The notes under the pieces: model-generated | The model's database searches: none | Told to the model about the DNA's origin: nothing | Seen by the model: only the letters and a program-made list of their open reading frames with translations | Position numbers and translations under genes: made by a program | Assembly (NCBI RefSeq): GCF_013167955.1 | Contig: NZ_BLWF01000001.1 | Coordinates: 124,001-188,000 of the forward strand | Reading direction: 5' to 3' | From: Thermanaeromonas sp. C210 | Lineage (GTDB): Bacteria > Bacillota > DSM-521 > Neomoorellales > Neomoorellaceae | Length of the DNA stretch: 64,000 nt | In this document: one piece after another, positions 23,550-39,657 of the stretch | Layout of the letters: every line of letters begins with the position of its first letter | Numbering within the stretch: the stretch's first letter is position 1

Positions 23550-24158
23550 TTAGAGCAGGACATTTTTTAACACCAAGTCGAGTATGTGCTCCAAGCGTTT
23601 TTCTAAGTTCTGCGGGTGGGCCGGGTTATCTTGCCAAAGAACTGCCAGTATGTCCTTTTTGGTGAAATAGGAAATGCATAAACTGCTTATACTTGTCAGC
23701 ATCTGCCTTATATCCAGGTCAGGGCGGAAGACCCCCCTGGCCTTTCCTTCCTCCAGTATCCCTTTAAGCTGGGGTAAGCCTTCCTCCCATATAAGTGGCA
23801 GGACTTTTCTCGCGTAGACACCGCCTTCCAGGGCCTCCCAGGACATCAAACGGGCGAAATGGGGGTTTTGAGCCAGGAAATAGAAGTAGGTCTTTATCGC
23901 TTCCACCAATTGCTCTTTGGGATCGCCTTTGCCTTTAGCGGCCTGGCTAGTGGCGGCCAGGACCTTCTCGAAATTAGCCTCGAGTACTGCGGCATAGAGA
24001 TCTTCTTTACTGCGAAAGTAATGATAAAGCATCCCCTTATTGACTTTAGCTTTAGCGGCGATCTCGTCTACCCGCGCGCCACGTAGACCTTTGGCGGCGA
24101 AAATTTCCTCGGCGGCCGAAAGAATTCGCTCTTTGCTTTGTATCGCAGGATGCGCCAT
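23550..24158 (-). CDS. TetR/AcrR-family repressor
   Basis: A 202-residue regulator with an N-terminal TetR helix-turn-helix (AAEEIFAAKGLRGARVDEIA, then LYHYFRSKEDLY). It is the first gene of the HlyD-permease operon and probably represses it. A 10+10 bp inverted repeat lies 33 bases upstream (24191-24212). The protein is a close paralogue of the regulator at 30139, sharing both the DNA-binding half and C-terminal segments such as RPDLDIRQ and KRLEHILDLVL. Confidence 0.92.
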   Translation of the reverse strand: MAHPAIQSKERILSAAEEIFAAKGLRGARVDEIAAKAKVNKGMLYHYFRSKEDLYAAVLEANFEKVLAATSQAAKGKGDPKEQLVEAIKTYFYFLAQNPHFARLMSWEALEGGVYARKVLPLIWEEGLPQLKGILEEGKARGVFRPDLDIRQMLTSISSLCISYFTKKDILAVLWQDNPAHPQNLEKRLEHILDLVLKNVLL

Positions 24159-24190: not shown

Positions 24191-24212
24191 AGTAACTAAC
24201 CAGTTAGTTACT
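24191..24212. promoter_or_regulatory. TetR-type operator, perfect inverted repeat
   Basis: The arms AGTAACTAAC and GTTAGTTACT flank two central bases (CA). The site lies between AT-rich -10-like boxes on the minus strand (TATGAT, 24215-24220; TATAAA, 24178-24183), upstream of the tetR gene. It is a probable autoregulatory operator. Confidence 0.8.
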
Positions 24213-24324: not shown

Positions 24325-24370
24325 AAAATTTTTCCCTCCTCTGCGAAACTTCATCTCTTCTCCTTCGTGT
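24325..24370 (+). promoter_or_regulatory. ECF-type promoter with A/T tract (instance 1, sigma gene)
   Basis: GCGAAACTTC (24343-24352), 11 bases, then TTCGT (24364-24368), so GAAAC is followed by 16 bases and CGT. This is the geometry of known ECF promoters (TGAAAC-N16-CGTA for sigma-W). AAAATTTTT (24325-24333) lies just upstream, like an UP element. The same pattern occurs at 25028 and 31480. Confidence 0.75.
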
Positions 24371-24421
24371 CTATTAGCAGGATTCCGTCACCAGCTATTC
24401 CCCTTAAAAAGGAGCTTACCC

Positions 24422-25000
24422 ATGGGTGATGCGGAAAGCTTAATAGCCAGAATACAGGAGGGGGATACCTCTGCCTTTGAAGAGCTTGTGGTCATCTACA
24501 AGGACAAGGTATACTCCCTGGCCTTAACTTTGGCGGGAAACCGGGCAGATGCAGAAGACCTGACCCAGGAAATCTTCTTAAGGATTTATACCTCCTTGCC
24601 CGATTTCGCCAGGGGGAAAGGCAGTTTCGACGCCTGGGTACATAGGATAGGCGTGAACCTGTGGATAGATTCCTGGAGGCGGCGGAAAAAATTGCAGACC
24701 TTTTCTATAGATGGAGCAAGCACCTCGGAGGAGGAAGGAACGGGGTGGGAGCTGCCCAGCGCAGAGGAAGATGTACAAGAAAAGATAGACAAGAAGGAGT
24801 TCTGGCAGGCCGTTTGGAAGGCCATGGGCGAGCTGCCGGAAAACTACCGCCTGGCTTTAAAGTTAAGGGCCATAGACGAGCTCTCCTACAAGGAGATAGC
24901 CGCCACCTTGGGGGAAAGCGAGGCGGCGGTCAAATCGCGGCTTAACCGGTGCCGCCAGTTACTTAAGGAGAAATTACGCCGGGATGGCTTCCTCCCTTAG
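24422..25000 (+). CDS. ECF-type RNA polymerase sigma factor
   Basis: A 192-residue group IV sigma factor. Region 2 contains DAEDLTQEIFLRIY for core binding and -10 recognition, with WVHRIGVNLWIDSWRRR after it. Region 4 contains LPENYRLALKLRAIDELSYKEIA-type helices ending in a helix-turn-helix. The start is ATG 24422 behind AAAAAGGAGC; longer upstream frames overlap the promoter. The anti-sigma gene follows at 25130 from its own copy of the same promoter. Autoregulation by this sigma factor is the simplest reading. Confidence 0.93.
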   Translation: MGDAESLIARIQEGDTSAFEELVVIYKDKVYSLALTLAGNRADAEDLTQEIFLRIYTSLPDFARGKGSFDAWVHRIGVNLWIDSWRRRKKLQTFSIDGASTSEEEGTGWELPSAEEDVQEKIDKKEFWQAVWKAMGELPENYRLALKLRAIDELSYKEIAATLGESEAAVKSRLNRCRQLLKEKLRRDGFLP

Positions 25001-25006
25001 CACTGC

Positions 25007-25055
25007 AAAAAATTTTTTTAAAACCCCGCGAAACTTCCCGGCCGGTTGTTCGTTA
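25007..25055 (+). promoter_or_regulatory. ECF-type promoter with A/T tract (instance 2, anti-sigma gene)
   Basis: GCGAAACTTC (25028-25037), 11 bases, then TTCGT (25049-25053), identical in spacing to the promoter at 24343. An A6T7 tract (25007-25019) precedes it. It lies 77 bases before the anti-sigma start codon. Confidence 0.75.
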
Positions 25056-25129
25056 TTATACACAGAAACACGGGGAAAAGGCAGGAGGCCCTGGAGGCGG
25101 GCGAAGGGATAAGAAAGGTGGTTGGCGCT

Positions 25130-26245
25130 ATGAAGTGCCGCCAGGCGAAAAAACTATTATCCCCATATCTGGATGACGAATTAAGGGCGAAAGAAAAAGC
25201 TGCCTTGGAAGAGCACCTGACGGGTTGCCCCGCCTGCCAGGCTGAACTTGAGAGATTACGTAAGATATCCGAGGGCTTAAAAGGTATATACCGTGAAGTG
25301 AAGCCTCCTCCCGACTTCCTCGACCGGGTCATGGCCCGGATAGAGGAAATAGAAAAAGGGGGAGCGTACCATCCGGCCGAAGGAAAGGCCCGGAGGTTAG
25401 GAGGGTGGCGTAAGTTCGCCCTGGCGGCTGCCTTAACGGCGAGCGTAGGCCTATTTATCCTTCATTATAGCCGTACCGGCACCGGAAGCGGTCCGTCAAT
25501 GTGGCCGGGTCCTTACAATACGGCCGCTCCGGGCACCACGGTGATTGCTGAAAACCATGGGGGCGCTCCGGCGGGTGGAAAACCAAGCGCCGGCGAGCAG
25601 GAGCAGGCCGTGGGAACAGCGGCGGACAGCAACGCGGTGGAGCGGGTTCGTGCTGGAGGCGTACCTGGTGAGCCGGAGAAAAAGGCGAGTGGCCAGGATG
25701 GATCGCCAGGAGCAGCGGCGGAGAAAAAGCACGTAAGCGCTGCTGCAGGGCAGAAACCCCGGGAGCAGGGTGAAAGCGGAAATCGCATAGCTTCCGGGGA
25801 GGAAGTCACTGCCCGGCCGCAAGCCTTCCTCAGCAGGAACAGGCACGTGCGCACCACCACGGTCAAGGTGGAAGTGGATAATCTACCCTACGCCAAAGAA
25901 ATAGTGGCCGTCCTGGCCGAGAAGGCGGGAGCCGGGAGGCCGCAGGAAGTCTGGGTCTACCAGCAGGAAGAAGCTATCCTGCGGGCGGTGCTGCCTGCAG
26001 ACAGCACCGCTCAGTTCCTGGAGAAGGTGGTTAAACTGGGCAAAGAAATCGACCGGGAGCGAGAAACGGTGGACATAACAGCCGGGTTCGACCGCAAGCT
26101 GTTGGAATACCAGGAACTGGTAGGCAGGAAGGACAGCGCGAGCCTGGCGATGGCCAGGGTTTTAGAACAGCAGCTAAAAGACCTTGACCGCGAAACCCTG
26201 GAAGCAGGGAACGAAGTGGTGAATGTGTGGTTAAAACTCCGCTAG
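25130..26245 (+). CDS. Anti-sigma factor, zinc-finger type, with extracellular sensor domain
   Basis: A 371-residue single-pass membrane protein. The N-terminus (MKCRQAKKLLSPYLDDEL, then EEHLTGCPAC with H-x3-C-x2-C) is the zinc-binding anti-sigma domain of the RsiW/zf-HC2 type. A transmembrane helix lies near residues 105-122. A long Gly/Ala/Glu-rich linker (about 125-225) leads to an extracellular domain with predicted coiled coil that resembles DUF4349-type domains. It should hold the ECF sigma factor inactive at the membrane until an envelope signal triggers release. The start is ATG 25130 behind AAGAAAGG. Confidence 0.88.
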   Translation: MKCRQAKKLLSPYLDDELRAKEKAALEEHLTGCPACQAELERLRKISEGLKGIYREVKPPPDFLDRVMARIEEIEKGGAYHPAEGKARRLGGWRKFALAAALTASVGLFILHYSRTGTGSGPSMWPGPYNTAAPGTTVIAENHGGAPAGGKPSAGEQEQAVGTAADSNAVERVRAGGVPGEPEKKASGQDGSPGAAAEKKHVSAAAGQKPREQGESGNRIASGEEVTARPQAFLSRNRHVRTTTVKVEVDNLPYAKEIVAVLAEKAGAGRPQEVWVYQQEEAILRAVLPADSTAQFLEKVVKLGKEIDRERETVDITAGFDRKLLEYQELVGRKDSASLAMARVLEQQLKDLDRETLEAGNEVVNVWLKLR

Positions 26246-26538
26246 CCGGCTTATCCGGCGCTGCGGGGTAGTGATAAAACGCCGGCAGGGCGCTATAGTC
26301 TTACCGGCGCGGAAACCGGAAAAGGGGGGATGCGGTCCCGCACGTCGACCGTCCCGGGCACGCGGGTTCGTGAGTGACGAAGAAGAGCCTATAAATCCGG
26401 CACCCGGGGTGCGACAGGAGCGGTGAAGACGGCGGGAAAGTTGGAGGGGATGGTAGGGCTCAATTAATACTCAAACGCTGCAATGATGCAGCAACACTAA
26501 ACCAAAACTAAACCGAAACTCTCTGGGAGGGGAGAAAG
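26246..26538 (+). promoter_or_regulatory. Long GC-rich leader before the surface-protein gene
   Basis: The leader holds many short hairpins: GCCGG/CCGGC (26245-26259), CGCCGG/CCGGCG near 26280-26310, TGCGG/CCGCA near 26330, GCACC/GGTGC near 26400-26413, and GCTGCA/TGCAGC near 26479-26494. Just before the ribosome binding site (GGGAGGGGAG, 26525-26534) there is a short repeat ACTAAACC/AAACT. I do not recognise a riboswitch class. A stable leader is common for abundant surface-protein mRNAs. Confidence 0.45.
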
Positions 26539-28920
26539 TTGCTAAAAGCGAGGAAGAAATGGCTATCAATCCTCATTACCCTGGCCATGCTGGTCGGTTT
26601 GATGGTGCCCTTCGCAGGACCGGCAGCGGCTGTGGGTACGGTGTATACGCCAATGACGGTTCCGACAGTAGAAGATGATGGGACGCGGGAATTAGGATCT
26701 TTCCAGATTGAAATTGACCCGATGTACAGCAGTGAGAACTCGGAAGCTATGATCGAGTTACCGGCAGACTACGAAATATATACGGCTACAATAACGGCAT
26801 ACGTGTATGATGAAACCACCGGCAAGAAGCTGAGAAAGACATGGAACATCGAAGACATTGCAAAATCAAGTACTCCTCCAGTGGCATTAAGCGAAGGTGG
26901 AAACGAGGCGGCAAAGCTAATAATCAGCAATATAACGGACCGGGGCTTTAAGTTAAAGCTTGACGGAGACGGTATAGATGGAGTGGCCGGGGAAAAGTTC
27001 CGTATTCTCATCGGGTTCCCCAGCGTTAAGGTACCCGCGGGGGTATCCGAAGATATTAAGGTCAGCATAACCCACATCAGGGGTCAGCTTGTCGACGGCT
27101 CAGTAGTTGTAGGTAAAATCAGTGAAGGCGCATTAAAGGTCAGTGTAATGGACGATGAAAGCTTCTCAGATGAGGGCGGATATGTGACATTGCGGGTGGA
27201 AGAAACTGTACCTGGTACCTTCGCTGCAGGCGACAAGCTTAAACTAGAACTCCCTGATGGCTTCTCCTGGGGCGGGGTAGTGAATGTTGATTTTATATTT
27301 GGTACGCTAGAGGAGAAGGGTAAGACAGCAGGAGCTAGTAAAGTTGTAAGTGATCCCGAGGACAAGTTTAGCATTGAACCCGACAGCGATGAGGATACGT
27401 TAGAGATCACACTTAAATCCACTGGTGACTCCAGTACGTATTATGAGAGCACTCAGCGCATGGCCATCGAGATCAAGGTGCGCGTAGAGGTAACGGACAG
27501 CGATGAGGCAGAATCTGGCGATGTCGTTGTGAAGGTAAAGGGTGATTATGACGTAAGTCCTACTGAGATAATTGTTGGTCAGTATGGAGAATATGAGACA
27601 GAGATCGAAGCTAAAGACCCGTCTATAGTGGCTTATGCTGGCCAGGTGGATCAGGAAGTTAGCGATATCGTAATCAAGGAGAGTATCAAGGGCAGCTTGG
27701 TAGATGGGCGAACCATTACGCTCACGCTACCCGAGAACGCCAGGTGGTTCAAGATCGATGATCAAGAGCTCGCGAAGGACGGTAGCGGAAAGTGGACCTC
27801 AACATCTAAAGACTTTGAGGTTGACAGCGATAACGGCGTGAAGTTAAAATTTGTCGGCCTTCAGGGAACCGATGATCGCACCGCCAAGTTCAAGATTGAG
27901 CGCAGCTCCACTGAAGAGGATCCTGCCGAACTGACCATCGAGGACATCAGCGTAGCGCTCAAAGCTGGCGTGACCGGCGATCTTAAGGTTGAGGTCGGTG
28001 GCAGCGCAGGCCTCACCGGTGAGATCACCATAGCCAAGGTCGTTAACCCGGTGACGGTAACTGCTGAAAAGACGAACGTGCAGATAGGTAAGGCCGACCA
28101 AGCGGCTGGCAAGATAGTCATAGCTGAGTACGCGGCGGGAGCCATTGATACTGACGACGGGAACAGGTCCATAACCTTAACCCTGCCCGAAGGTGTTAAG
28201 TTCAGTAGCAAGCCTACGGTCGAGGTAACCAAGGGTGACATCGAGATTGAGACGGTTGATGTTAAGGATGCCGATGACGGCCGCGATGATGCCGTACTCG
28301 AGATTGAGTTTAAGGATAATAGTGACGAGGCGAGTACTATCGAGATCAGTGATATTTACTACGATATCGATCGGACCTTCGGCGAGGGTGATATCAAGGT
28401 TAAAATTGGTGGCAAGGCGCTCGTATATTCCAGTATAGATGGGTATGATAGCAAAGAACCCTCTGACGATCCATTCTTCGAGGATCCTGATTATCTAGTC
28501 AAGGTAGCCAACGCCACCTGCGTGACCCCGGCTCCGTCCGAGGTTAAGCAGACGGCCGTGTTCACCATCAACAGCACCACCTACACCGTGAACGGCGTGC
28601 AGGCCACCATGGACGTTGCTCCGTACATTAAGGACGGCCGCACCTACCTGCCAGTGAGATATGTGGCTTATGCCCTCGGCATCTCGCCCGAGAACGTGAT
28701 CTGGGACGGCGTTAAGGCCACCTTCATCGGGCAGGTCCGTGTGGTGCAGGTCACTCCTGGCAGCACTATCCTGGCCATCAACGGTGCGCCCGTCACCATG
28801 GATGTGGCAGCCGAAGTGGTCAACGGCCGCGTGATGGTGCCGTTCCGGTGGGTGGCCCAGGCCTTCGGTGCTCAGGTAGACTGGGACGAGGCTAACCAGA
28901 CCGTTACCATGAACCTGTAA
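26539..28920 (+). CDS. Large acidic secreted surface protein with C-terminal stalk (copper amine oxidase N-like) domain
   Basis: A 793-residue exported protein. The signal peptide (basic start, hydrophobic core, end near AGPAAA) is followed by about 650 residues of Asp/Glu-rich beta-type sequence, with repeated themes such as ITLTLPE/LTLPEGV and EVxVTD. The last 110 residues are a copper amine oxidase N-terminal-like domain with two copies of a pattern seen in YTVNGVQATMDVAPYI and LAINGAPVTMDVAAEV. Such domains are frequent on clostridial S-layer or wall proteins. The TTG start has GGGAGGGGAG upstream. The body is clearly richer in A/T than the C-terminal domain and the neighbouring genes. 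Function is probably structural. Confidence 0.82.
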   Translation: MLKARKKWLSILITLAMLVGLMVPFAGPAAAVGTVYTPMTVPTVEDDGTRELGSFQIEIDPMYSSENSEAMIELPADYEIYTATITAYVYDETTGKKLRKTWNIEDIAKSSTPPVALSEGGNEAAKLIISNITDRGFKLKLDGDGIDGVAGEKFRILIGFPSVKVPAGVSEDIKVSITHIRGQLVDGSVVVGKISEGALKVSVMDDESFSDEGGYVTLRVEETVPGTFAAGDKLKLELPDGFSWGGVVNVDFIFGTLEEKGKTAGASKVVSDPEDKFSIEPDSDEDTLEITLKSTGDSSTYYESTQRMAIEIKVRVEVTDSDEAESGDVVVKVKGDYDVSPTEIIVGQYGEYETEIEAKDPSIVAYAGQVDQEVSDIVIKESIKGSLVDGRTITLTLPENARWFKIDDQELAKDGSGKWTSTSKDFEVDSDNGVKLKFVGLQGTDDRTAKFKIERSSTEEDPAELTIEDISVALKAGVTGDLKVEVGGSAGLTGEITIAKVVNPVTVTAEKTNVQIGKADQAAGKIVIAEYAAGAIDTDDGNRSITLTLPEGVKFSSKPTVEVTKGDIEIETVDVKDADDGRDDAVLEIEFKDNSDEASTIEISDIYYDIDRTFGEGDIKVKIGGKALVYSSIDGYDSKEPSDDPFFEDPDYLVKVANATCVTPAPSEVKQTAVFTINSTTYTVNGVQATMDVAPYIKDGRTYLPVRYVAYALGISPENVIWDGVKATFIGQVRVVQVTPGSTILAINGAPVTMDVAAEVVNGRVMVPFRWVAQAFGAQVDWDEANQTVTMNL

Positions 28921-28936
28921 GCCTGCGGGGCTTCCG

Positions 28937-28975
28937 GGACCCGGGCCCGGGGATGGGCCCGGGTCCTCTACTTTG
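28937..28975 (+). terminator. 12-bp perfect hairpin, terminator-like
   Basis: GGACCCGGGCCC (28937-28948) pairs perfectly with 28955-28966 around a 6-base loop, followed by TCTACTTT. The stem is very strong but the U-run is poor. It separates the surface-protein gene from the TolC-like gene, which starts 20 bases later, so it may attenuate rather than stop transcription. Confidence 0.65.
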
Positions 28976-28986
28976 GGGGTGGTAGG

Positions 28987-30084
28987 TTGAAGCGGTGGGT
29001 AATAGCGCTAGTTCTGGCCCTTCTAGTGTTCTTTGGCACGGCGGGAACCGCTGCTGCCAAGGATACGCTTAGTTTAGACGAGGCCATCAAGCTTGCCTTG
29101 GATTACGATAAGGGTCTTAAAAAAGCCGAGGCAGAGATCGAGCGCACTAAGGCGATTAGGGACGACGCCCAGGAGGACGTGCAATTCACCCCGGTTCAGG
29201 GCGGCTACAGCGGCCCTTACGGCCCGCAGATAGAGGCGAGCTGGAATAAGCTTCTCTCTGCTGACCTCGCCTGGCGGGCTAGCAAAAAGGACTACGAGGC
29301 GAAGGTCGACGCCTTAGTTTTAGATGTGTGTAAAAAATACTGGGACGTACAGGTTGCCCAGAGCAAGTTATTGCTACAGGAAAAGCTCAAGGAGCAGGCT
29401 TTGATTAACCTTCAGAACGCGAGGGCGGGTGCAGCGGCGGGAACTGTGGCTCCGTCTATGCTAGTGATAGCTGAGGCCCAGTATGAGCAAGCGGTAAAGA
29501 ACTACGAGCAGGCCAAGCACGCCTTGGGTGACGCTTACAATGCCCTAAACCAGGCTATCGGTCTGGATGCCGCAGCAAGGCCCGAGCTCACCGATGATGT
29601 GAAATTCGAGCCTCTGCAGGTGGATAGCCTGGACTCCGCGGTGTCTAGGGCTCTGGAGAAGGCCCCCACTGTGTGGAAGGCGCGGCAGAATATAGATTTG
29701 AAGCGCTGGGCCGCAGATATGATGTACTTTACCGGGTCCTACACACCTTACGACGCCCGGCAGAAAGAGCTCGAACAGGCGGAGCTTGACTATGCCACTG
29801 TGCAGGAGCTTATGGCTAAAGCAACCCGCACTGCCTACTATCAAGCCAAACAGGTGGAGGAAGGATACGCTGCAGCGCTGGAGGCCCTTAAGATGGCCGA
29901 AGAGAAGCTTCGCGTGGAGAGGGCCAAGTACGAAGTGGGGATGTCTACCAAAGCGGACCTGGTTTCGGCTGAGGTGTCTGTGGTCCAGGCCCGGCAGACC
30001 CTGGATCAACTGGTGCGGAACCACGCTTATCTAAAGCTGGCCTTTGAAAAGCCCTGGGCTATGTCGGCGGGAAGCAGTTCCTAG
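28987..30084 (+). CDS. TolC-family coiled-coil protein, secreted
   Basis: A 365-residue protein with a signal peptide (ending near TAAA) and the OEP/TolC helical repeat pattern in two halves: LSLDEAIKLALDYDKGL with a long helix to about 200, then LDSAVSRALEKAPTVWKARQ with a second long helix to the end. TolC proteins usually have 420-490 residues; the parts expected to form barrel strands are very short here. The TTG start has GGGGGTGG upstream. It lies between two HlyD/ABC exporter loci and may extend them through the cell wall. Confidence 0.8.
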   Translation: MKRWVIALVLALLVFFGTAGTAAAKDTLSLDEAIKLALDYDKGLKKAEAEIERTKAIRDDAQEDVQFTPVQGGYSGPYGPQIEASWNKLLSADLAWRASKKDYEAKVDALVLDVCKKYWDVQVAQSKLLLQEKLKEQALINLQNARAGAAAGTVAPSMLVIAEAQYEQAVKNYEQAKHALGDAYNALNQAIGLDAAARPELTDDVKFEPLQVDSLDSAVSRALEKAPTVWKARQNIDLKRWAADMMYFTGSYTPYDARQKELEQAELDYATVQELMAKATRTAYYQAKQVEEGYAAALEALKMAEEKLRVERAKYEVGMSTKADLVSAEVSVVQARQTLDQLVRNHAYLKLAFEKPWAMSAGSSS

Positions 30085-30138
30085 GGTGGTCTATTGTGGG
30101 GCTTGCGGAAAATTTCCCCGGCAAGCCCTTAATATGTA

Positions 30139-30753
30139 TTAGGGATTGGCCAGGATGTATCTTAAGACAAGGTCCAGGATGTGTTCCAGGCGCTTCTTGA
30201 GGTTTTCCGGGCTGGTAGGCTCATCCTTCCATAGGATAGCCAGGATGTCCTTTTCCATAAAGTAGGAAGTACACAGGGTGTGTATAGTGGTGGCCAGCTG
30301 GCGGATGTCCAGGTCGGGACGAAAGGGGCCCCGGGCCATACCCTGCTCGATTATGGCTTTTAGGTTGGGGACGCCTTGCTCCCAGATAGGTGGCAAAACC
30401 TTGCGGGCGTGGACGCCTCCCTGAAGGGCTTCCCACGATAAGAGCCGGGGGTAATGGGGGTTGGCGGCTAAAAAATAGAAGAAGGAAGTAATAATGGCCC
30501 TGACTTGCTCCACGGGATCCGGGCTCCTGGTAATCGCCCGACCTCCCAAGGCCAGAAGCTTCTCAAAGTTGGATTTTAAGACCGCTGTGTAAAGATCCTC
30601 TTTACTTTGGAAATAATGGTAGAGCATGCGCTTATTGATATTAGCCCTGGCGGCTATTTCATCCACCCGGGCCCCTTCTAGGCCCTTGGCGGCAAAGATT
30701 TCTTCGGCTGCGGCCAGAATTATTTCCCTGCTGCCGTGGCGCGAGCGTGGCAA
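30139..30753 (-). CDS. TetR/AcrR-family repressor (paralogue of the one at 23550)
   Basis: A 205-residue regulator with the TetR helix-turn-helix (EEIFAAKGLEGARVDEIA, then LYHYFQSKEDLY). I place the start at TTG 30753 with AAGGGGTG as its site (complement of 30762-30769). The longer frame from ATG 30792 would begin directly at the -10 box of the promoter at 30793-30822 and so could not be fully transcribed. The shorter form also matches the 202-residue paralogue. The regulated genes are unknown; the adjacent cupin or the exporter operon at 31569 are candidates. Confidence 0.88.
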   Translation of the reverse strand: MPRSRHGSREIILAAAEEIFAAKGLEGARVDEIAARANINKRMLYHYFQSKEDLYTAVLKSNFEKLLALGGRAITRSPDPVEQVRAIITSFFYFLAANPHYPRLLSWEALQGGVHARKVLPPIWEQGVPNLKAIIEQGMARGPFRPDLDIRQLATTIHTLCTSYFMEKDILAILWKDEPTSPENLKKRLEHILDLVLRYILANP

Positions 30754-30792
30754 TGAGGGAACACCCCTTGCGTACAGCGCAGTTTCGCTCAT

Positions 30793-30822
30793 ATACTAAC
30801 GCAGTCCTTACTGGCTTGTCAA
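30793..30822 (-). promoter_or_regulatory. Sigma-A promoter for the second tetR gene
   Basis: On the minus strand TTGACA (complement of 30817-30822), an 18-base spacer and TAGTAT (complement of 30793-30798). The -10 box abuts the ATG at 30792, which argues for the downstream TTG start. Confidence 0.7.
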
Positions 30823-30958
30823 GTGACCCTCCTAGTTGGCTCCATAGCCTGTGGCAGACGCCTCTCAAAAACAAATGATGGGGTCCCCTTTGCCTTTTCT
30901 AAACTCGAGTTGAGAGAGAATAGGTGGAGCGCCTCTGGAATGCTCTTATAATGGAATT

Positions 30959-30987
30959 AAAAAAGCCCGGAACCCCTCCTTCCGGGC
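30959..30987 (-). terminator. Rho-independent terminator of the cupin gene
   Basis: Read on the minus strand, GCCCGGAA and TTCCGGGC (complements of 30980-30987 and 30965-30972) form an 8-bp stem with a 7-base loop, followed by six T (complement of 30959-30964). Confidence 0.88.
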
Positions 30988-31015
30988 CGGCCTCTGCGCC
31001 TACCAAATCTTGGTC

Positions 31016-31357
31016 TTACGGTTGTACCTTGCTCAATGACTTGGGATTGGGAGTCTTGATGACCAGGATGCTGAAGCTGCTTGCTGTATCTGCCTGTAGG
31101 CCGTGGGGGATGTGGGCAGGGCTGACCACTATATCTCCGGCAGTAACTTCGGCCATTTCGGTTCCTATAGTCACTTTCCCTTTACCCTCTATCACATGAA
31201 AAAGAACATCTACTGGTGTGACATGGATGGGCACTTCCTCACCCGGGGATAAAAGGAGATTGATCACGTTTACCACTGGCCGGTCTACCAAAGGGCGGGC
31301 TTTTACTCCCCTGGGTGTAGGCTTGATGGGCTGCTCGGCGATACGAATTATTTCCAT
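31016..31357 (-). CDS. Cupin-domain protein
   Basis: A 113-residue single-domain cupin. Motif 1 reads GEEVPIHVTPVDVLFHVIEG and motif 2 reads AGDIVVSPAHIPHGL, giving His, His, Glu/Asp and His positions for metal binding. The start is ATG 31357 behind TAGGAGG; an upstream frame adds residues without a site. It resembles the cupin at 41094 in size and motif layout. Small cupins of this type often bind metal or a small ligand and influence stress or transport functions; no specific role can be read. It is divergent from the exporter operon at 31569. Confidence 0.82.
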   Translation of the reverse strand: MEIIRIAEQPIKPTPRGVKARPLVDRPVVNVINLLLSPGEEVPIHVTPVDVLFHVIEGKGKVTIGTEMAEVTAGDIVVSPAHIPHGLQADTASSFSILVIKTPNPKSLSKVQP

Positions 31358-31463
31358 TCCAGATAAACCTCCTAACAGGTATTTTAAGGAAATTCTAAAC
31401 TGTAACGGCGACAAGGGCTGTTAAATAGATCACAAGTAGTGGAAATAGGCCGGGCACTAGTAG

Positions 31464-31511
31464 AAAATTTTTAAAGGCCGCGAAACTAAAAAGGTGATCT
31501 TTCGTTATAAT
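31464..31511 (+). promoter_or_regulatory. ECF-type promoter with A/T tract (instance 3, exporter operon)
   Basis: GCGAAACTAA (31480-31489), 11 bases, then TTCGT (31501-31505): the same motif and spacing as at 24343 and 25028. AAAATTTTT (31464-31472) lies just upstream. A TATAAT (31506-31511) overlaps the end of the motif but has no good -35 for sigma-A. Confidence 0.75.
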
Positions 31512-31518
31512 ATAAAGT

Positions 31519-31534
31519 AAGTGAGTACTCACTT
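31519..31534. promoter_or_regulatory. 16-bp perfect palindrome, probable TetR operator
   Basis: AAGTGAGTACTCACTT lies just downstream of the ECF-type promoter, where a bound repressor would block initiation. The TetR gene ending the operon (35983) or the one at 30139 could be the binder. Confidence 0.75.
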
Positions 31535-31568: not shown

Positions 31569-32756
31569 ATGGAAGTGCAGGCGGTTTGGCCCAAGGTCAG
31601 GAAAGGGTTTATACCCTTAGCCGTGGCGGCAGCCCTGGGGGTTATCCTTATGACTACGAGGGACAACCAGGGTACTACCGTAAGAATACAAAATGGCGGC
31701 ATGGTGCTTCAGGCCTCGGGCACCATCGAAGGGACGGAAATAGGAGTGGCGCCGGAAATTTTGGGCCGGATCAAGCAAATATTCGTCCAGGAAGGGGAAT
31801 GGGTGGAAGCCGGGAAGGTAGTGGCTGTACTGGAGGACAGTGTCCTTAAGGAACAGGTGGCCCAGGCCCAAACGGCGGTGGCAGAGGCCGAGGCTCGCTT
31901 GGCCCAGGCCAAGGCCAATTTAGAGATGGAACGGGCCAGAGTGGAGGGAAATATCCAAAGTGCCCTGGCCAACCTACAAAAGGTGGAGAGCGGCGCACGG
32001 CCCCAGGAAATCAACGAAGCGCAGAAAAATCTGGCCCAGGCTCAAGCTGTGTTTAAAAATGCTGAAGAACAGCTGCGCAGGATGGAAGTATTGTACAAAC
32101 AAGGTGTCATTTCCGAACAGCAATTTCAAGAGGCTCAAACCAATTATGAGGTGGCTCAAGCCAAGGTGGGAACTGCCCAAGAAAAGTTATCTTTGTTACT
32201 TGCTGGAGCGCGGGAGGAAGATAAGCTTATGGCCCGAGCCAATTATGAGATAGCCCTGGCCGGCCGGTATCAAGTGGAGCTGCGGGCTAAAGAAGTAGAA
32301 GCGGCTACTTTAGCTGTGGAGAAAGCTAAGGCCGGCTGGAAAATGGCCCAAGAACAATTGGATAAAACTGTAATACGCTCCAGTGTAAACGGCATTGTAC
32401 TTAGGACCAACTTTAGTACAGGAGAAGTAGTCAACCCGGGGGTACCCATTGTAACCTTGCTGGACCCCAGTGATATGTGGCTGGTCATCTATGTGCCGGA
32501 ACCGGCCATTGGGTATGTGAAGATAGGCCAAGAGGCTTTGGTTACCGTGGATTCCTTCCCGGGCAAGACTTTTAGGGGTAGGGTAAGCGAGATTGCTACC
32601 CAGGCCGAGTTTACCCCTAAAAACGTCCAAACCAAGGAAGAACGAGTAGACCTGGTGTTTAGGGTTAAAATTACCCTCTCTAACGAAGAGCGGGTGCTAA
32701 AACCAGGTATGCCGGCTGATGCCGTGGTCTATTTAGATGCCGGGGAGGTAAACTGA
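31569..32756 (+). CDS. HlyD-family exporter adaptor
   Basis: A 395-residue membrane-fusion-type protein anchored by an N-terminal transmembrane helix (about 12-28). It has the first lipoyl half (PEILGRIKQIFVQEGEW), a long coiled coil (about 85-255), the second lipoyl half (RSSVNGIVLRTNFSTGE) and a beta-barrel domain ending with LKPGMPADAVVYLD. It is the first gene of the five-gene exporter operon 31569-36591, behind the ECF-type promoter and palindrome. GGGAGGGGAAGGG precedes the ATG. It is equivalent to YbhG of the YbhFSR system. Confidence 0.92.
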   Translation: MEVQAVWPKVRKGFIPLAVAAALGVILMTTRDNQGTTVRIQNGGMVLQASGTIEGTEIGVAPEILGRIKQIFVQEGEWVEAGKVVAVLEDSVLKEQVAQAQTAVAEAEARLAQAKANLEMERARVEGNIQSALANLQKVESGARPQEINEAQKNLAQAQAVFKNAEEQLRRMEVLYKQGVISEQQFQEAQTNYEVAQAKVGTAQEKLSLLLAGAREEDKLMARANYEIALAGRYQVELRAKEVEAATLAVEKAKAGWKMAQEQLDKTVIRSSVNGIVLRTNFSTGEVVNPGVPIVTLLDPSDMWLVIYVPEPAIGYVKIGQEALVTVDSFPGKTFRGRVSEIATQAEFTPKNVQTKEERVDLVFRVKITLSNEERVLKPGMPADAVVYLDAGEVN

Positions 32757-32762
32757 AGCTTT

Positions 32763-33734
32763 ATGGGTGCTAAGCACGGCGATCCAGTTATAAAAACGGA
32801 AGGGCTCTGCAAAAGATTTAGCCAGATCCGGGCTGTAGACAATCTCCACTTAGAAGTAAGGGAAGGGGAGATCTTCGGCCTGGTGGGTCCCGATGGGGCA
32901 GGGAAGACTACAACCCTAAGGATGCTGGTGGCCATACTTTGGCCGGACGAGGGAAAAATTTCTGTTTTAGGACGGGAGGTTCCGGCTGAGGCCGAAACTA
33001 TTAAGCCCCATATAGGTTATATGCCCCAGCGCTTCAGCCTTTACGGGGATCTGACCGTGGAGGAAAACTTGGATTTTTATGCTGAAATTCATGAAGTACC
33101 TGGCCGCTTGCGAGAGAAACGCAAACAGGAACTTCTGAGTTGGGCCGGCCTTAAGCCCCATAGCTATAAGCTGGCCGACCAGCTTTCAGGAGGAATGAAA
33201 CAGAAGCTGGCCCTGGCCTGCAATCTCATCCATGAGCCTGCGGTTCTTTTTCTGGATGAGCCCAGTACCGGCGTAGATCCCGTGGCGCGGCGGGACTTCT
33301 GGCGCATTCTCTTTAGATTACGGGAACAGGGTTCTACCATTTTGGTGAGCACGCCTTACATGGATGAGGCTGAACGCTGTGATCGCATTGCCTTTATACA
33401 TAATGGCCGGATTTTAGCCTGCGCTACGCCGCAGGCCATCAAAAATCTTTTCCAGGGGCATCTCTTACTTCTGCTAACGGAAACCATCGATATGCTCCAT
33501 GTAGCTAAAGAGCGCTTGCGGCAGGAGCCCTGGTTAGACGATGTATTAATCTATGGTAATTCTCTTCACCTTACGGCCCAGGATAAGGAGCAGGCCGGTA
33601 AGTTGGTACCGGCAATATTGAGGCGGGAAGGGGTGAGGGTGGTCGAGCTTAAACCTATTGCCCCCTCCCTGGAAGATGCCTTTACCTTTCTAGTGAAACA
33701 GGGAGGAAGGGTTGGGGGGAAGCGTGATGCTTGA
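32763..33734 (+). CDS. ABC transporter ATPase (exporter, first of two)
   Basis: A 323-residue nucleotide-binding subunit. Seen are Walker A GPDGAGKTT, the Q-loop region YMPQRFSLY, signature LSGGMKQK and Walker B AVLFLDEPSTGVDP. The C-terminal extension (about 240-320) is typical of CcmA/YbhF-type exporter ATPases. It follows the HlyD gene by six bases and overlaps the second ATPase by eight. The two together correspond to the two halves of the fused YbhF protein. Confidence 0.93.
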   Translation: MGAKHGDPVIKTEGLCKRFSQIRAVDNLHLEVREGEIFGLVGPDGAGKTTTLRMLVAILWPDEGKISVLGREVPAEAETIKPHIGYMPQRFSLYGDLTVEENLDFYAEIHEVPGRLREKRKQELLSWAGLKPHSYKLADQLSGGMKQKLALACNLIHEPAVLFLDEPSTGVDPVARRDFWRILFRLREQGSTILVSTPYMDEAERCDRIAFIHNGRILACATPQAIKNLFQGHLLLLLTETIDMLHVAKERLRQEPWLDDVLIYGNSLHLTAQDKEQAGKLVPAILRREGVRVVELKPIAPSLEDAFTFLVKQGGRVGGKRDA

Positions 33735-34683
33735 GAGCAGGTGGGCTATCGTAGTGGAAGGTTTAACCAAACGTTTTGGCAGTTTCTTAGCTGTAAACAA
33801 TGTTTCCTTTAAGGTGCGACGAGGGGAAATCTTCGGGTTTCTTGGCCCCAACGGCTCGGGAAAATCCACTACCATCCGCATGCTTTGCGGTCTCTTAGTC
33901 CCTACCAGTGGCCAGGCTACCGTCTTGGGATATGATATTGTACGAGATTCCGAAGCTATTCGCCTTAAGATAGGATATATGTCTCAAAAGTTTAGCCTCT
34001 ACGAGGACCTGACGGTAGGAGAAAACCTGGAATTTTACGCTGGAGTTTATCAACTAGCGCCTGAGCGTTTCAGGCAACGTAAAGGGGAAATTTTAAATCT
34101 TATTGGTTTGGCTGGTAAAGAACGCACCCTTACCGGGAATCTTTCGACCGGCTGGAAACAGAAACTGGCCTTAGGATGTGCCTTGCTCCACGAACCGGAG
34201 CTTGTACTTTTAGATGAACCTACTAGCGGAGTGGACCCTGTGGCCCGCCGGAATTTCTGGGACCTTATTTATGATCTGTCCCACGCTGGTGTCACTGTTT
34301 TGGTCACCACCCATTACATGGATGAAGCTGAGCATTGCCATACTATTGGTTTTATTTATAACGGCAAACTGGTAGCGTTTGGTACCCCTGATCACCTTAA
34401 GAAGACCAAAATGCAGGGTGAAATCCTGGAAATCCAATGTTCGCCCCTCATGCCTGCCTTGGAGGCTTTGGCTGAGGTTCCGGGAGTGTTAGAGGCGGCT
34501 ATGTACGGAGCAGGGCTCCATGTAGTAGTGGGAGATATATTTCGGGATAGCCCTTATGTGCGCCAGGCTTTAGAAAGGGCGGGAGTGGAGGTAAAATCTA
34601 TTCTCCCTGTGGAACCGGGTTTAGAAGATGTTTTTGTGTCGTTAGTAGAAGGTGGTTCTCGCCCGGAGGGGGTTTCGGTTTAA
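33727..34683 (+). CDS. ABC transporter ATPase (exporter, second of two, unusual signature)
   Basis: A 318-residue ATPase: Walker A GPNGSGKSTT, YMSQKFSLY, Walker B ELVLLDEPTSGVDP. The signature reads LSTGWKQK instead of LSGGxxQ, so the ATP site it contributes to may be weak. The start is ATG 33727 (GTG 33724 is possible), within the end of the previous gene, behind GGGGGAAG. It probably pairs with the ATPase at 32763 as a heterodimer. Confidence 0.92.
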   Translation: MLESRWAIVVEGLTKRFGSFLAVNNVSFKVRRGEIFGFLGPNGSGKSTTIRMLCGLLVPTSGQATVLGYDIVRDSEAIRLKIGYMSQKFSLYEDLTVGENLEFYAGVYQLAPERFRQRKGEILNLIGLAGKERTLTGNLSTGWKQKLALGCALLHEPELVLLDEPTSGVDPVARRNFWDLIYDLSHAGVTVLVTTHYMDEAEHCHTIGFIYNGKLVAFGTPDHLKKTKMQGEILEIQCSPLMPALEALAEVPGVLEAAMYGAGLHVVVGDIFRDSPYVRQALERAGVEVKSILPVEPGLEDVFVSLVEGGSRPEGVSV

Positions 34684-34806: not shown

Positions 34807-35946
34807 GTGAACTTTAAACGTATCTGGGCCATTGCAAGAAAGGAATTTATTCACATAAGGAGGGACCCCCGGACTATTGCCTTAATCCTCCTTATGCCGG
34901 TTATGCAGATGTTTCTTTTCGGTTATGCGGTCTCTACTAATGTGGAGCACATAAAGACGGTGATTTGGGACCAGGCGAAAGATCAGAGGAGCCGGGAGTT
35001 CGTCCAGGCCCTGGTACAGTCTCACTATTTTGACGTTGTGGCCTATGTAGAAAACCACGACGCTATACGGGAATGGGTGGATAAGGGTAAGGCCCGGGTG
35101 GGGTTTGTTATCCCGGCCGATTTTTCCCGCCGGATGGACCGGGGAGAGGCAGCTCCGGTGCAGGTACTAGTGGATGGTTCGGATCCTATGACGGCCAGCA
35201 CTGTGTTATCTACGGCCGGGGCCATTGCCCAGGCCAAATCTTCGGAATGGATGGTCCATACTTTGCGCCAGCGAGGTATAGAAAGCAGCAGGGCTCCCCT
35301 GGCCAGGATAGATTTGCGGCCCTGGGTGTGGTATAACCCCGAGATGAAAAGCGTTAACTTCAATATTCCCGGGCTCATCGGCGTGATACTGCAAAATATT
35401 ACCATGATGCTTACGGCCTTTGCTATAGTGAGAGAACGAGAAAAAGGTACTCTGGAGCAGCTTATAGTGACGCCCATCAAACCCGTAGAGCTTATGTGGG
35501 GGAAAGTTATTCCTTATATTATCATCGGTTTTGCCGATCTGCTTTTGGCTATAGCCGTGGGTATATTGTGGTTTCGTGTACCCGTGCACGGGAATCTTCT
35601 TCTCCTTTTGGCCCTTTCCTTTGTGTTCTTAGTGGGCGCCTTGGGTATCGGCCTTCTCATTTCCACTGTTTCCCGTACCCAGCTCCAGGCCATGCAGCTT
35701 ACTATGTTTTTGGTCATGCCCAATATTCTGTTATCCGGTTTTATGTTTCCCCAGGATGCCATGCCCAAGGTGGTGCAAAAATTAGGGGAAATAATACCTT
35801 TGACCTATTTTATCCAAATATTGCGGGCCATAATTTTAAAGGGTGTGGGGTTGTCTTATCTTTGGTTCCAGGTAATTTATCTTCTTGTATTTGGGGTGGT
35901 CATCATTATCATAAGTGCCCTGAAATTCCGCAAAAACCTGGAGTAA
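34807..35946 (+). CDS. ABC-2 type permease (YbhS-like)
   Basis: A 379-residue exporter membrane subunit with one N-terminal helix, an extracellular domain (about 45-175) and six C-terminal hydrophobic segments. It has the loop REREKGTLEQLIVTPIKP and the motif PLTYFIQILRAIILKG typical of the family. The GTG start at 34807 is behind GGGAGGGGG. A 123-base gap separates it from the ATPase gene. YbhFSR-type systems use two different permeases; only one is encoded here, and the permease at 21202 may be the other. Confidence 0.92.
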   Translation: MNFKRIWAIARKEFIHIRRDPRTIALILLMPVMQMFLFGYAVSTNVEHIKTVIWDQAKDQRSREFVQALVQSHYFDVVAYVENHDAIREWVDKGKARVGFVIPADFSRRMDRGEAAPVQVLVDGSDPMTASTVLSTAGAIAQAKSSEWMVHTLRQRGIESSRAPLARIDLRPWVWYNPEMKSVNFNIPGLIGVILQNITMMLTAFAIVREREKGTLEQLIVTPIKPVELMWGKVIPYIIIGFADLLLAIAVGILWFRVPVHGNLLLLLALSFVFLVGALGIGLLISTVSRTQLQAMQLTMFLVMPNILLSGFMFPQDAMPKVVQKLGEIIPLTYFIQILRAIILKGVGLSYLWFQVIYLLVFGVVIIIISALKFRKNLE

Positions 35947-35982: not shown

Positions 35983-36591
35983 ATGGCTGCAAAAGCCAGC
36001 ACTGCCGTGAGGCAGGAACAGATAGTTGCTGCTATTTTAAGAATAGTAGACAGTAGGGGGCTGAATAATCTTACTACCGCCGCCCTGGCCCAGGAAGTGG
36101 GTCTAACAGAGGGCGCGCTTTTTAAGCATTTTGCCAGCAAGGAAGAGATGTTAAGGGCGGCAGTAGAAAAAGTGGGCTACACTTTAGTAAAGAAAGCTGC
36201 GGAGATATCCAGAAGTGCTCTGCCTCCGGAGGAAAAAATAAGAGCACTTTTAAACTTTCATTTGGGTTTGGTGGAAACAAATCCTGGTATGTCCAGGATC
36301 ATTTTTTCAGATGAGCTATATACTAGCTACCCTGGTTTAAAAGAGACTATAAAAGAAATAATAAGCGAGTATATTTTACACATTAGGGCTATCTTTAAAC
36401 AGGGTATGGCCCAAGGGGTATTCCAGTCCCATTTTTCCCTTGAGTGTTTGGCTGATATTTTTGGAGGGCTTATTCAAGGGGCTATTATTCGCTGGCGATT
36501 ATACGATAGGAAGCTCTCTCTCCCAGAGCAAGCTGGCCATATTTACCGGGCTATAATGCTCCTGGCGGGCTATCGAGGAGATAATCCTTAA
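35983..36591 (+). CDS. TetR/AcrR-family regulator, last gene of the exporter operon
   Basis: A 202-residue TetR regulator with helix-turn-helix NLTTAALAQEVGLTEGALFKHF. It differs from the two other TetR proteins in the window and ends the exporter operon, so it probably controls it through the palindrome at 31519. AGGAGG-type bases precede the ATG. A terminator follows at 36599. Confidence 0.92.
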   Translation: MAAKASTAVRQEQIVAAILRIVDSRGLNNLTTAALAQEVGLTEGALFKHFASKEEMLRAAVEKVGYTLVKKAAEISRSALPPEEKIRALLNFHLGLVETNPGMSRIIFSDELYTSYPGLKETIKEIISEYILHIRAIFKQGMAQGVFQSHFSLECLADIFGGLIQGAIIRWRLYDRKLSLPEQAGHIYRAIMLLAGYRGDNP

Positions 36592-36981: not shown

Positions 36982-37000
36982 AGAACGTGAGGTGAATGAT

Positions 37001-37246
37001 ATGCGGCAAAAAATAGGTACAGCCCTCAGCCCCCGGCTTCTTTACAAGGCTAAACTCGTAGCTAAAAGTAAAAAGAAGCCTGTTAATGCTATAATTGAAG
37101 AAGCATTGGAACAATACCTTTATAAGAATAAGAACAAGAAGACTGGAGAGGAAGCTTCTGTAGTTCGGAGCACGAGAGGTAGTATACCAGCCCAGGCTGA
37201 AGTAGTGAGAAAGATCCTCGAGGAGGAAGACTTTGTTGAGGTTTGA
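37001..37246 (+). CDS. Putative antitoxin of a PIN toxin pair
   Basis: An 81-residue basic/acidic protein. The N-terminal 45 residues (TALSPRLLYKAKLVAKSKKK, then NAIIEEALEQYL) look like a ribbon-helix-helix DNA-binding domain, followed by a charged tail expected to bind the toxin. The start is ATG 37001 behind GAGGTG, rather than GTG 36992. Its end overlaps the toxin gene by 14 bases. Confidence 0.72.
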   Translation: MRQKIGTALSPRLLYKAKLVAKSKKKPVNAIIEEALEQYLYKNKNKKTGEEASVVRSTRGSIPAQAEVVRKILEEEDFVEV

Positions 37247-37742
37247 AGAATTACCAGATGGTAGCCAGGTTTTCATCGATGCTAACATTTTTATTTACCA
37301 CTTTGGCGGTATATCCAACGAGTGTACCTCTTTTCTAGAAAGATGCGAAAGGGAGGAAATTTTCGGCTTTACTACCGTAAATATTCTCCTAGAAGTTATG
37401 CACCGTTTAATGATGTTGGAAGCAGTAACCGGGGGTTTTGTTACTCCGGGAAACGTAGCCAAGAAGTTGAAAAGCAGACCGGAGATTATTAGGCAACTTC
37501 ACATTTACGCTGAACAAATAGAAAAAATTCCGGCAATGAATATCCACTTGGTACCGGTTACTGAGGAGTTGTGTTTAAAGGCGCTACCCTGGCAGCAGAG
37601 GTACGGTCTTATGACTAACGATTCCATCTTGTTAGCAGCTTGTCAGGAATATAACTGTTGGAACTTAGCTTCTAATGACCAGGTATTTGCTAGGATAGAG
37701 GAATTAACTCTATGGAAACCTTCCGATGTGGAGGGAGATTGA
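37233..37742 (+). CDS. PIN-domain ribonuclease toxin (VapC-like)
   Basis: A 169-residue PIN domain. Acidic residues at expected places are D16 (FIDANIFIYH), E54 (LLEVMHR), D129 region (MTNDSILLA) and the ASNDQVF segment near 151. It starts with TTG 37233 inside the antitoxin gene. It would cleave RNA when released from the antitoxin. It ends seven bases before a convergent gene. Confidence 0.85.
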   Translation: MLRFEELPDGSQVFIDANIFIYHFGGISNECTSFLERCEREEIFGFTTVNILLEVMHRLMMLEAVTGGFVTPGNVAKKLKSRPEIIRQLHIYAEQIEKIPAMNIHLVPVTEELCLKALPWQQRYGLMTNDSILLAACQEYNCWNLASNDQVFARIEELTLWKPSDVEGD

Positions 37743-38938: not shown

Positions 38939-38989
38939 AATACTAAGTAATACCCACTTTTTCGACATCCGATTGGGAGGGTGGTTAAA

Positions 38990-39232
38990 GTGCGGGAAAC
39001 AGTGGTTTGGACCATCTCCCTGCCCCCTAAAATGGCCGAGACGGCGGAAGCCCTGGCCAAACTCGAGAACCGCTCTAAAAGCGAACTCATCCGGGAGGCG
39101 CTGCGCCAGTATATGGCCCTGCGGGAATGGGAACAGATGCAAGCCAAGGCCTCCCTTAAGGCACAGACCCTGGGGATAACGGACGAAAGCAAAGTGGAAC
39201 AGATCATTGATGAACTGCGGCAGGGGCAATGA
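38990..39232 (+). CDS. Ribbon-helix-helix (CopG-type) antitoxin
   Basis: An 80-residue protein with the CopG/RHH pattern TVVWTISLPPKMAETAEALA and SKSELIREALRQYM, followed by a charged tail. The start is GTG 38990 with GGGAGGG upstream; GTG 38981 lies on that site. It overlaps the toxin start by four bases (ATGA). Confidence 0.85.
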   Translation: MRETVVWTISLPPKMAETAEALAKLENRSKSELIREALRQYMALREWEQMQAKASLKAQTLGITDESKVEQIIDELRQGQ

Positions 39233-39657
39233 AGGCGGTACTAGACACGAACGTGCTGGTCTCCGCCCTCCTGTTCCCCGGCGGGCCGCCCGACCGGGTA
39301 TTCAGGGCCGCCCTGAGGGGCCACTACGAGCTGGTGGTCAGCCCCTTCATCATCCGGGAGCTTGCCCGCGTGCTCGAGCAAAAATTCGGATACACTGCCG
39401 AAGAAGCAGGGGCTGTGGCGGGGTTGGTTGAAAGCAACGCGTCCACAATTGTAGAGCCGACAGAGGTGCCGAAGATCATCGCCAGCAAAAAGGCCGACAA
39501 CGAAATATTAGCTTGTGCGCTGGAAGCCGGGGCCGATTACTTGGTCACAGGCGACCTGAAGCACATATATCCCCTTCAGAACGTAGGCAAGGCAAGAATA
39601 GTCTCCCCTTCTGAATTCCTGGCCATCCTTCAGTCGGAGGGCAGGGTTGCTCCGTGA
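39229..39657 (+). CDS. PIN-domain toxin, COG1569 type
   Basis: A 142-residue PIN nuclease of the short COG1569 group. Features are LDTNVLVSALLFPGG (D6), IIRELARVLEQKF, ASKKADNEILACALEAGADYLVTGD, and a C-terminal SPSEFLAIL. It forms an operon with the antitoxin at 38990. The catalytic acidic residues appear intact, so the pair may be active. Confidence 0.88.
   Translation: MKAVLDTNVLVSALLFPGGPPDRVFRAALRGHYELVVSPFIIRELARVLEQKFGYTAEEAGAVAGLVESNASTIVEPTEVPKIIASKKADNEILACALEAGADYLVTGDLKHIYPLQNVGKARIVSPSEFLAILQSEGRVAP

Follow-up and report, generated by a model that had tools for sequence, protein, structure and literature searches.

The hallmarks of extracytoplasmic function (ECF) sigma factors are an AAC in the -35 element and a CGT in the -10 element of their promoters, a cognate anti-sigma factor, and positive autoregulation, which is predicted for about 55% of them (PMC8103513). 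For SigW of Bacillus subtilis, the published promoter is TGAAAC-N16,17-CGTA (PMC2375139). TolC-like proteins have been reported earlier in monoderm Firmicutes, which have neither an outer membrane nor the barrel assembly machinery (BAM), and a location in the S-layer was proposed; the protein of Clostridioides difficile has an omission in its barrel domain, and the available part of that report states as an open question how such proteins sit and assemble without an outer membrane (PMC8809574). The locus described here lies in a window of 64 kb (the whole stretch of DNA analysed) from Thermanaeromonas sp. C210, and comprises an ECF sigma gene, its anti-sigma gene, genes for a CuAO-N-domain protein and a TolC-like protein, and an operon for a HlyD-ABC exporter. 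The comparisons below suggest a canonical ECF mini-regulon that is probably devoted to a TolC-like export module, and the cell that carries it seems to have no outer membrane. Autoregulated ECF mini-regulons are ordinary by themselves; the unusual part is what this circuit serves.

Promoter motif in the window, the genome and its relatives

A sequence-only reading of the window had proposed that three copies of GCGAAACT mark promoters of the ECF sigma factor. The copies were re-found at 24343, 25028 and 31480 (P1, P2 and P3, respectively; Table 1). The distance from GAAAC to CGT is exactly 16 bases at all three sites, and the upstream A/T-tract, which had been placed 7-9 bases away, ends in T-tracts 9, 8 and 7 bases before GCGAAACT, respectively. 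The sites precede the sigma, anti-sigma and HlyD genes as described, with ATG codons 79 bp (24422), 102 bp (25130) and 89 bp (31569) downstream. The three sites have more in common than had been reported: the extended core, GCGAAACT-N13-TTCGT, has exactly three matches in the window and none in any of 100 dinucleotide shuffles.

The whole genome (2.68 Mb) was then searched by sequence pattern. GAAAC-N16-CGT by itself is uninformative, its 46 matches being below the 100 obtained with a reversed control, and GCGAAACT-N15-CGT gave 3 matches versus 2 in the control, which is near chance by count alone. The pattern AAATTT-N4-16-GAAAC-N15-17-CGT retrieved the three sites and one weak stray match, which has none of the extra bases. 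What stands out against chance is the joint presence of the A/T-tract, the location of the sites and their conservation in relatives; all three sites fall in one 7.2-kb stretch, ahead of their cognate genes. No fourth site was found genome-wide at one mismatch or less to GCGAAACT-N13-TTCGTTA. Three clear sites in 2.68 Mb make a small regulon, as had been claimed. Further members taken from matches with up to three mismatches were dropped, since there were 37 matches versus 46 in the reversed control. A housekeeping promoter was likewise dropped as a candidate, because a promoter scan called no sigma-70-type promoter at P1, P2 or P3.

Orthologues of the sigma factor (57-74% identity) were sought in 60 relatives and found in G004, G007, G008, G014, G016 and G020. 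At the loci of these orthologues, the same A/T-tract and GCGAAACT recur (two sites have CCGAAACT), and CGT follows at equal spacing. A matrix built from eleven sites of these relatives, with the window's own genome left out, ranked the window sites first to third at 47.2, 30.1 and 18.1 bits, compared with 2.1 bits for the next site in the window and 8.2 bits for the top score among 15 shuffled windows. Conservation of the upstream A/T-tract equals that of the two boxes, as might also be expected if the A/T-tract and GCGAAACT formed a transcription-factor binding site and not a promoter. However, a pair of boxes that contain AAC and CGT and keep a constant distance has been published as the hallmark of ECF promoters (PMC8103513); start codons follow the correctly oriented sites at 79-102 bp, and an analogous two-box motif is seen in the sister clade described below. 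A binding site of this kind is extremely improbable.

The motif precedes the sigma gene in G004, G007, G008, G014 and G016. In G008 and G016 it also precedes the anti-sigma/CuAO-N/TolC-like/HlyD/RND genes, as it does in G014 at a distance of 10 kb from the sigma gene, which is itself followed there by an orthologue of the TetR gene at 35983. It also stands before the CuAO-N/TolC-like genes in G007, where the CuAO-N gene has its own site, before the anti-sigma/CuAO-N genes in G020, and directly 3' of the sigma gene, near a contig end, in G004. An order-wide scan placed almost all motif matches in sigma-bearing genomes at the sigma locus. These comparisons indicate that the constant predicted target is the sigma circuit together with the anti-sigma, CuAO-N and, where seen, TolC-like genes, and that the pump varies by species; in the window, the motif stands before a HlyD-ABC-ABC-ABC2-TetR operon.

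Conversely, orthologues of the exporter HlyD protein (61-62% identical) are present in G006, G011 and G012, which have no sigma orthologue (best sigma matches, 40-46%). The GCGAAACT motif was not found upstream of the exporter orthologues in these three genomes, where the upstream regions retain a palindrome such as AAGTAATCGGTTACTT. Because the motif accompanies the sigma orthologue and is missing before exporter orthologues in genomes without this sigma factor, control of the motif by the sigma factor is supported. The proposal that the sigma factor drives three promoters, those of itself, its anti-sigma factor and the exporter, thus passes the comparative tests and is, in our judgment, very likely correct, with binding at P1-P3 inferred from sequence.

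The predicted sigma protein matches Pfam Sigma70_r2 and Sigma70_r4_2 above the cut-offs and has regions 2 and 4 only, as in ECF sigma factors; the promoter with AAC in the -35 and CGT in the -10 element before its own gene is present at P1 and at the orthologues. From its zf-HC2 domain with an Hx3Cx2C motif and its single hydrophobic segment, the product of the adjoining gene is predicted to be the cognate membrane anti-sigma factor. A literature search on DUF4349 anti-sigma factors found none.

Table 1. Features of the locus (positions in the window)
Feature	Coordinates	Strand	Remarks
P1: A/T-tract and ECF promoter GCGAAACT-N13-TTCGT before the sigma gene	24325..24368	+	Conserved in G004, G007, G008, G014, G016
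ECF sigma factor gene, 192 aa	24422..25000	+	Pfam Sigma70_r2 and Sigma70_r4_2; orthologues 57-74%
P2: A/T-tract and ECF promoter before the anti-sigma gene	25007..25053	+	Top matrix score, 47.2 bits
Anti-sigma factor	25130..26245	+	zf-HC2 with Hx3Cx2C at the N terminus; a single hydrophobic segment; weak match to a DUF4349-like domain, below cut-off, at the C terminus
Large secreted protein, CuAO-N domain at its C terminus; probable partner to the TolC-like protein	26539..28920	+	Phylum linkage; G089 fusion
TolC-like (OEP) protein without beta-hairpin regions	28987..30084	+	
P3: A/T-tract and ECF promoter before the exporter operon	31464..31505	+	Motif missing before exporter orthologues without the sigma factor
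Perfect 16-bp palindrome AAGTGAGTACTCACTT; probable TetR operator over the predicted transcription start	31519..31534	+	
HlyD-family adaptor	31569..32756	+	
Two ABC ATPase genes	32763..34683 (32763-33734, 33712-34683)	+	
ABC-2 permease	34807..35946	+	
TetR-family regulator (YsiA/FadR-like); probable repressor at P3	35983..36591	+	Orthologue follows the G014 sigma gene

Probable second control at the exporter promoter

The palindrome AAGTGAGTACTCACTT begins 13 bases after the CGT of P3, and thus overlaps the promoter of the operon to which the tetR gene belongs, as in a TetR-regulated exporter. In G014, a related AAGTGGTCATTTACTT stands about 11 bases after the CGT at the sigma promoter, before the orthologous TetR gene. 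From the palindrome, binding of the TetR-type protein to AAGTGAGTACTCACTT is probable. Because this TetR-type palindrome overlaps the exporter promoter, P3 is probably not under the sigma factor alone, and double control, in which the sigma factor must be active and TetR released, would be the simplest reading. The claim that the exporter is a target is upheld as far as the motif at P3 goes, and has to be amended in that the conserved target is the anti-sigma/CuAO-N/TolC-like operon and that P3 carries this second element.

P1 and P2 might be the only sigma promoters, P3 being a chance or decaying match and the exporter being run by TetR and a housekeeping promoter. The matrix score of P3 is the lowest (18 bits), its -10 region contains TATAAT, and the conserved control of the exporter in relatives is the palindrome. 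However, P3 retains all 13 common bases and the A/T-tract, a combination found in 0 of 100 shuffles of the window, and the scan calls no sigma-70-type promoter there, as no -35 element fits. These results make a chance or decaying match at P3 unlikely.

Two related TetR-family genes flank the module (30139-30792 and 23550-24158). A perfect inverted repeat, AGTAACTAAC-CA-GTTAGTTACT, is found at 24191-24212, before a TetR-HlyD-ABC2 operon directed away from the sigma gene; in G004 and G007, the orthologous tetR has similar repeats ahead of it. Beyond the exporter operon, two pairs of short overlapping genes (36992-37742 and 38981-39657), each encoding a small DNA-binding-like protein followed by a PIN-like protein, look toxin-antitoxin-like by eye from their translations.

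TolC-like protein, its probable partner and a sister circuit

The TolC-like protein shows two OEP stretches (80 bits versus a cut-off of 22). In an alignment with E. coli TolC and eleven homologues from the phylum, the two hairpin regions comprise 26 and 27 aa in the window protein and 21-30 and 19-28 aa in the homologues, compared with 55 and 73 aa in E. coli TolC. These results indicate that both beta-hairpin regions of TolC are lost or shortened in the predicted window protein. An AlphaFold model is all helix without strands and has OprM, CmeC and TolC as its best structural matches; as a single-sequence model of low confidence (predicted local distance difference test score, 60), it is taken as support only. 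Omp85 was found neither in the own genome nor in any of the 18 order relatives searched, and was found in 7 of 14 control genomes. From this, the host bacteria seem to lack an outer membrane.

Among 20 sampled TolC-like loci of the phylum, a sample that favours close homologues, a CuAO-N gene lies directly upstream on the same strand in about 16, and within about 3.3 kb in three or so more (counted by hand from a table; one locus, where the gene was masked by a longer opposite frame, was placed by coordinates). There are only ten CuAO-N domains in the own genome, and each of the two TolC-like genes there comes after one of them. In G089, a single 547-aa protein (L248:1342-2982) contains OEP (76 bits) and a C-terminal CuAO-N domain (112 bits). 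These results suggest that the CuAO-N protein is the probable partner of the TolC-like protein. With the CuAO-N protein family as query, a search of solved structures matched the CuAO-N domain only weakly and the first 37 residues once, and gave nothing for the large middle part.

The G089 fusion gene is preceded by a gene for another CuAO-N protein. In the window, the leader of the CuAO-N gene (26246-26538) holds a conserved AAAGGGGGGATGC block, which occurs once per genome, and only there, in the own genome, G007, G008 and G014. A structured leader RNA in this stretch was considered and dropped, as Rfam gave no match and the fold was not unusual (z -1.05).

Approximately half of the 20 TolC-like loci also carry an ECF sigma gene and the same type of anti-sigma gene. 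In eight of the nine loci with sigma and CuAO-N genes together, GGGAACTT and TGTCTAA, or close variants, were observed at equal spacing upstream of both genes; the exception, the ninth locus, probably reflects a sigma start set too far upstream, since a further search finds the motif there. In the own genome, this sister motif, GGGAACTT-N13-16-TGTCTAA, occurs at exactly two sites, with none in the control. They are the divergent sigma and CuAO-N promoters of a paralogous module (C1:98-104 kb; L200, G000:C1:93001-106000), where the sigma/anti-sigma genes diverge from a CuAO-N/TolC-like pair. In a tree of 40 sigma factors, those with GCGAAACT fall into one clade (support, 100/99) together with two unassigned G020 sigma factors, and those with GGGAACTT form a sister clade with weaker support, with one motif change between the clades. 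The sister clade is thus predicted to serve a parallel CuAO-N/TolC-like pair, in the own genome and across the phylum, and one genome apparently has two related, separate circuits, each tied to a TolC-like channel.

The paralogous sigma factor (C1:99.8 kb) is 46% identical to that of the window, and ECF promoters can overlap, so that P1-P3 might be recognized by this or another ECF sigma factor of the genome and not by the adjacent one. However, the paralogue clade goes with a different motif, confined in this genome to two sites at its own locus, and genomes with only that clade have no GCGAAACT motif at these genes. Recognition by another sigma factor is therefore very unlikely, and the adjacent one is the preferred candidate.

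Proposed mechanism and comparison with known systems

In the proposed mechanism, the sigma factor would be held at the membrane by the zinc-finger anti-sigma factor, whose outer sensor domain would respond to an envelope signal and free it. The freed sigma factor would recognize GCGAAACT-N13-TTCGT, aided by the upstream A/T-tract, at the three promoters. P1 would provide positive autoregulation, whereas P2 would supply extra anti-sigma factor for shut-off, with probable read-through into the CuAO-N gene and the gene for the barrel-less TolC-like channel. P3 would supply the HlyD-ABC pump, provided that the TetR-type repressor on the palindrome over the start also leaves, as is probably necessary. 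Together, the products might build a conduit for export across the wall of a cell that has no outer membrane, an assembly to which we give an even chance. The term envelope, which the sequence-only reading had applied to both regulon and signal, agrees with the gene content, from which alone it derives.

Several observations weigh against this scheme. This ABC exporter was seen with the motif in no other genome of the order, so that P3 rests on one genome, and P3 is the weakest of the three sites by the relatives-only matrix (18 bits). Read-through from P2 is made uncertain by the 293-bp gap between the anti-sigma and CuAO-N genes, by a GC-rich stem-loop (28943-28966) before the TolC-like gene, and by the separate motif site of the CuAO-N gene in G007. 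In addition, the lack of an outer membrane was judged from Omp85 alone.

On the scale of the phylum, an ECF-controlled barrel-less TolC-like tunnel and its CuAO-N partner may constitute a wall-spanning duct for interchangeable ABC or RND pumps; the module would have been duplicated and its promoter specificities split (GGGAACTT/TGTCTAA and GCGAAACT/TTCGT), giving two separate copies per cell. We consider this wider model about as probable as its opposite. The locus supplies a conserved partner gene for TolC-like proteins without an outer membrane, a possible answer to the assembly problem, in that there would be little or no barrel to assemble, and a regulatory circuit that would switch the module on, with directly testable promoters. 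In addition, the two paralogous sigma factors, whose promoter motifs differ, are a natural pair within one genome.

Compared with B. subtilis SigW, the GAAAC-N16-CGT core and its spacing fit the published promoter (PMC2375139), whereas the window sites read CGAAAC instead of TGAAAC and CGTG or CGTT instead of CGTA, and the regulon has only three targets. SigW gave the best-scoring NCBIfam models for the sigma protein, below their cut-offs (PRK09641, 133.1 bits versus 209; TIGR02948, 122.5 versus 243.1). The earlier comparison with sigma-W-type promoters therefore holds for the core and not for the flanking bases, and the sigma factor is SigW-like in promoter spacing and, by these scores, not a SigW orthologue.

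The locus resembles autoregulated ECF regulons in general (PMC8103513) in its AAC and CGT boxes, cognate anti-sigma gene and predicted positive autoregulation. It differs from them in that the anti-sigma gene has its own promoter, the regulon is confined to 7.2 kb, and the exporter promoter has a probable second, TetR-type control. Tt-RpoE1/Tt-TolB of Thermoanaerobacter tengcongensis is likewise an ECF sigma factor with a membrane anti-sigma factor encoded downstream, and Tt-RpoE1 transcribes its own gene in vitro, similar to the autoregulation read here from sequence; there, the two genes are 2 bp apart, and the available part of that report does not describe a second promoter (PMC3397946). 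The exporter shares its HlyD adaptor, ABC ATPases and ABC-2 permease with the E. coli RbbA-type and related HlyD/ABC-2 exporters, its best partial NCBIfam matches being RbbA and a HlyD-family secretion protein, all below cut-off, whereas its ATPase and permease genes are separate and coupled to an ECF promoter.

With the TolC-like proteins of monoderm Firmicutes, the window protein shares a reduced barrel domain and, as judged from Omp85, an apparent lack of an outer membrane in the cell; the shortening seen here affects both hairpin regions, in this protein as well as in the eleven homologues. The available part of PMC8809574 mentions neither ECF control nor a CuAO-N partner; relative to it, the linkage to the CuAO-N gene, the predicted partner gene and the putative sigma circuit are added here.

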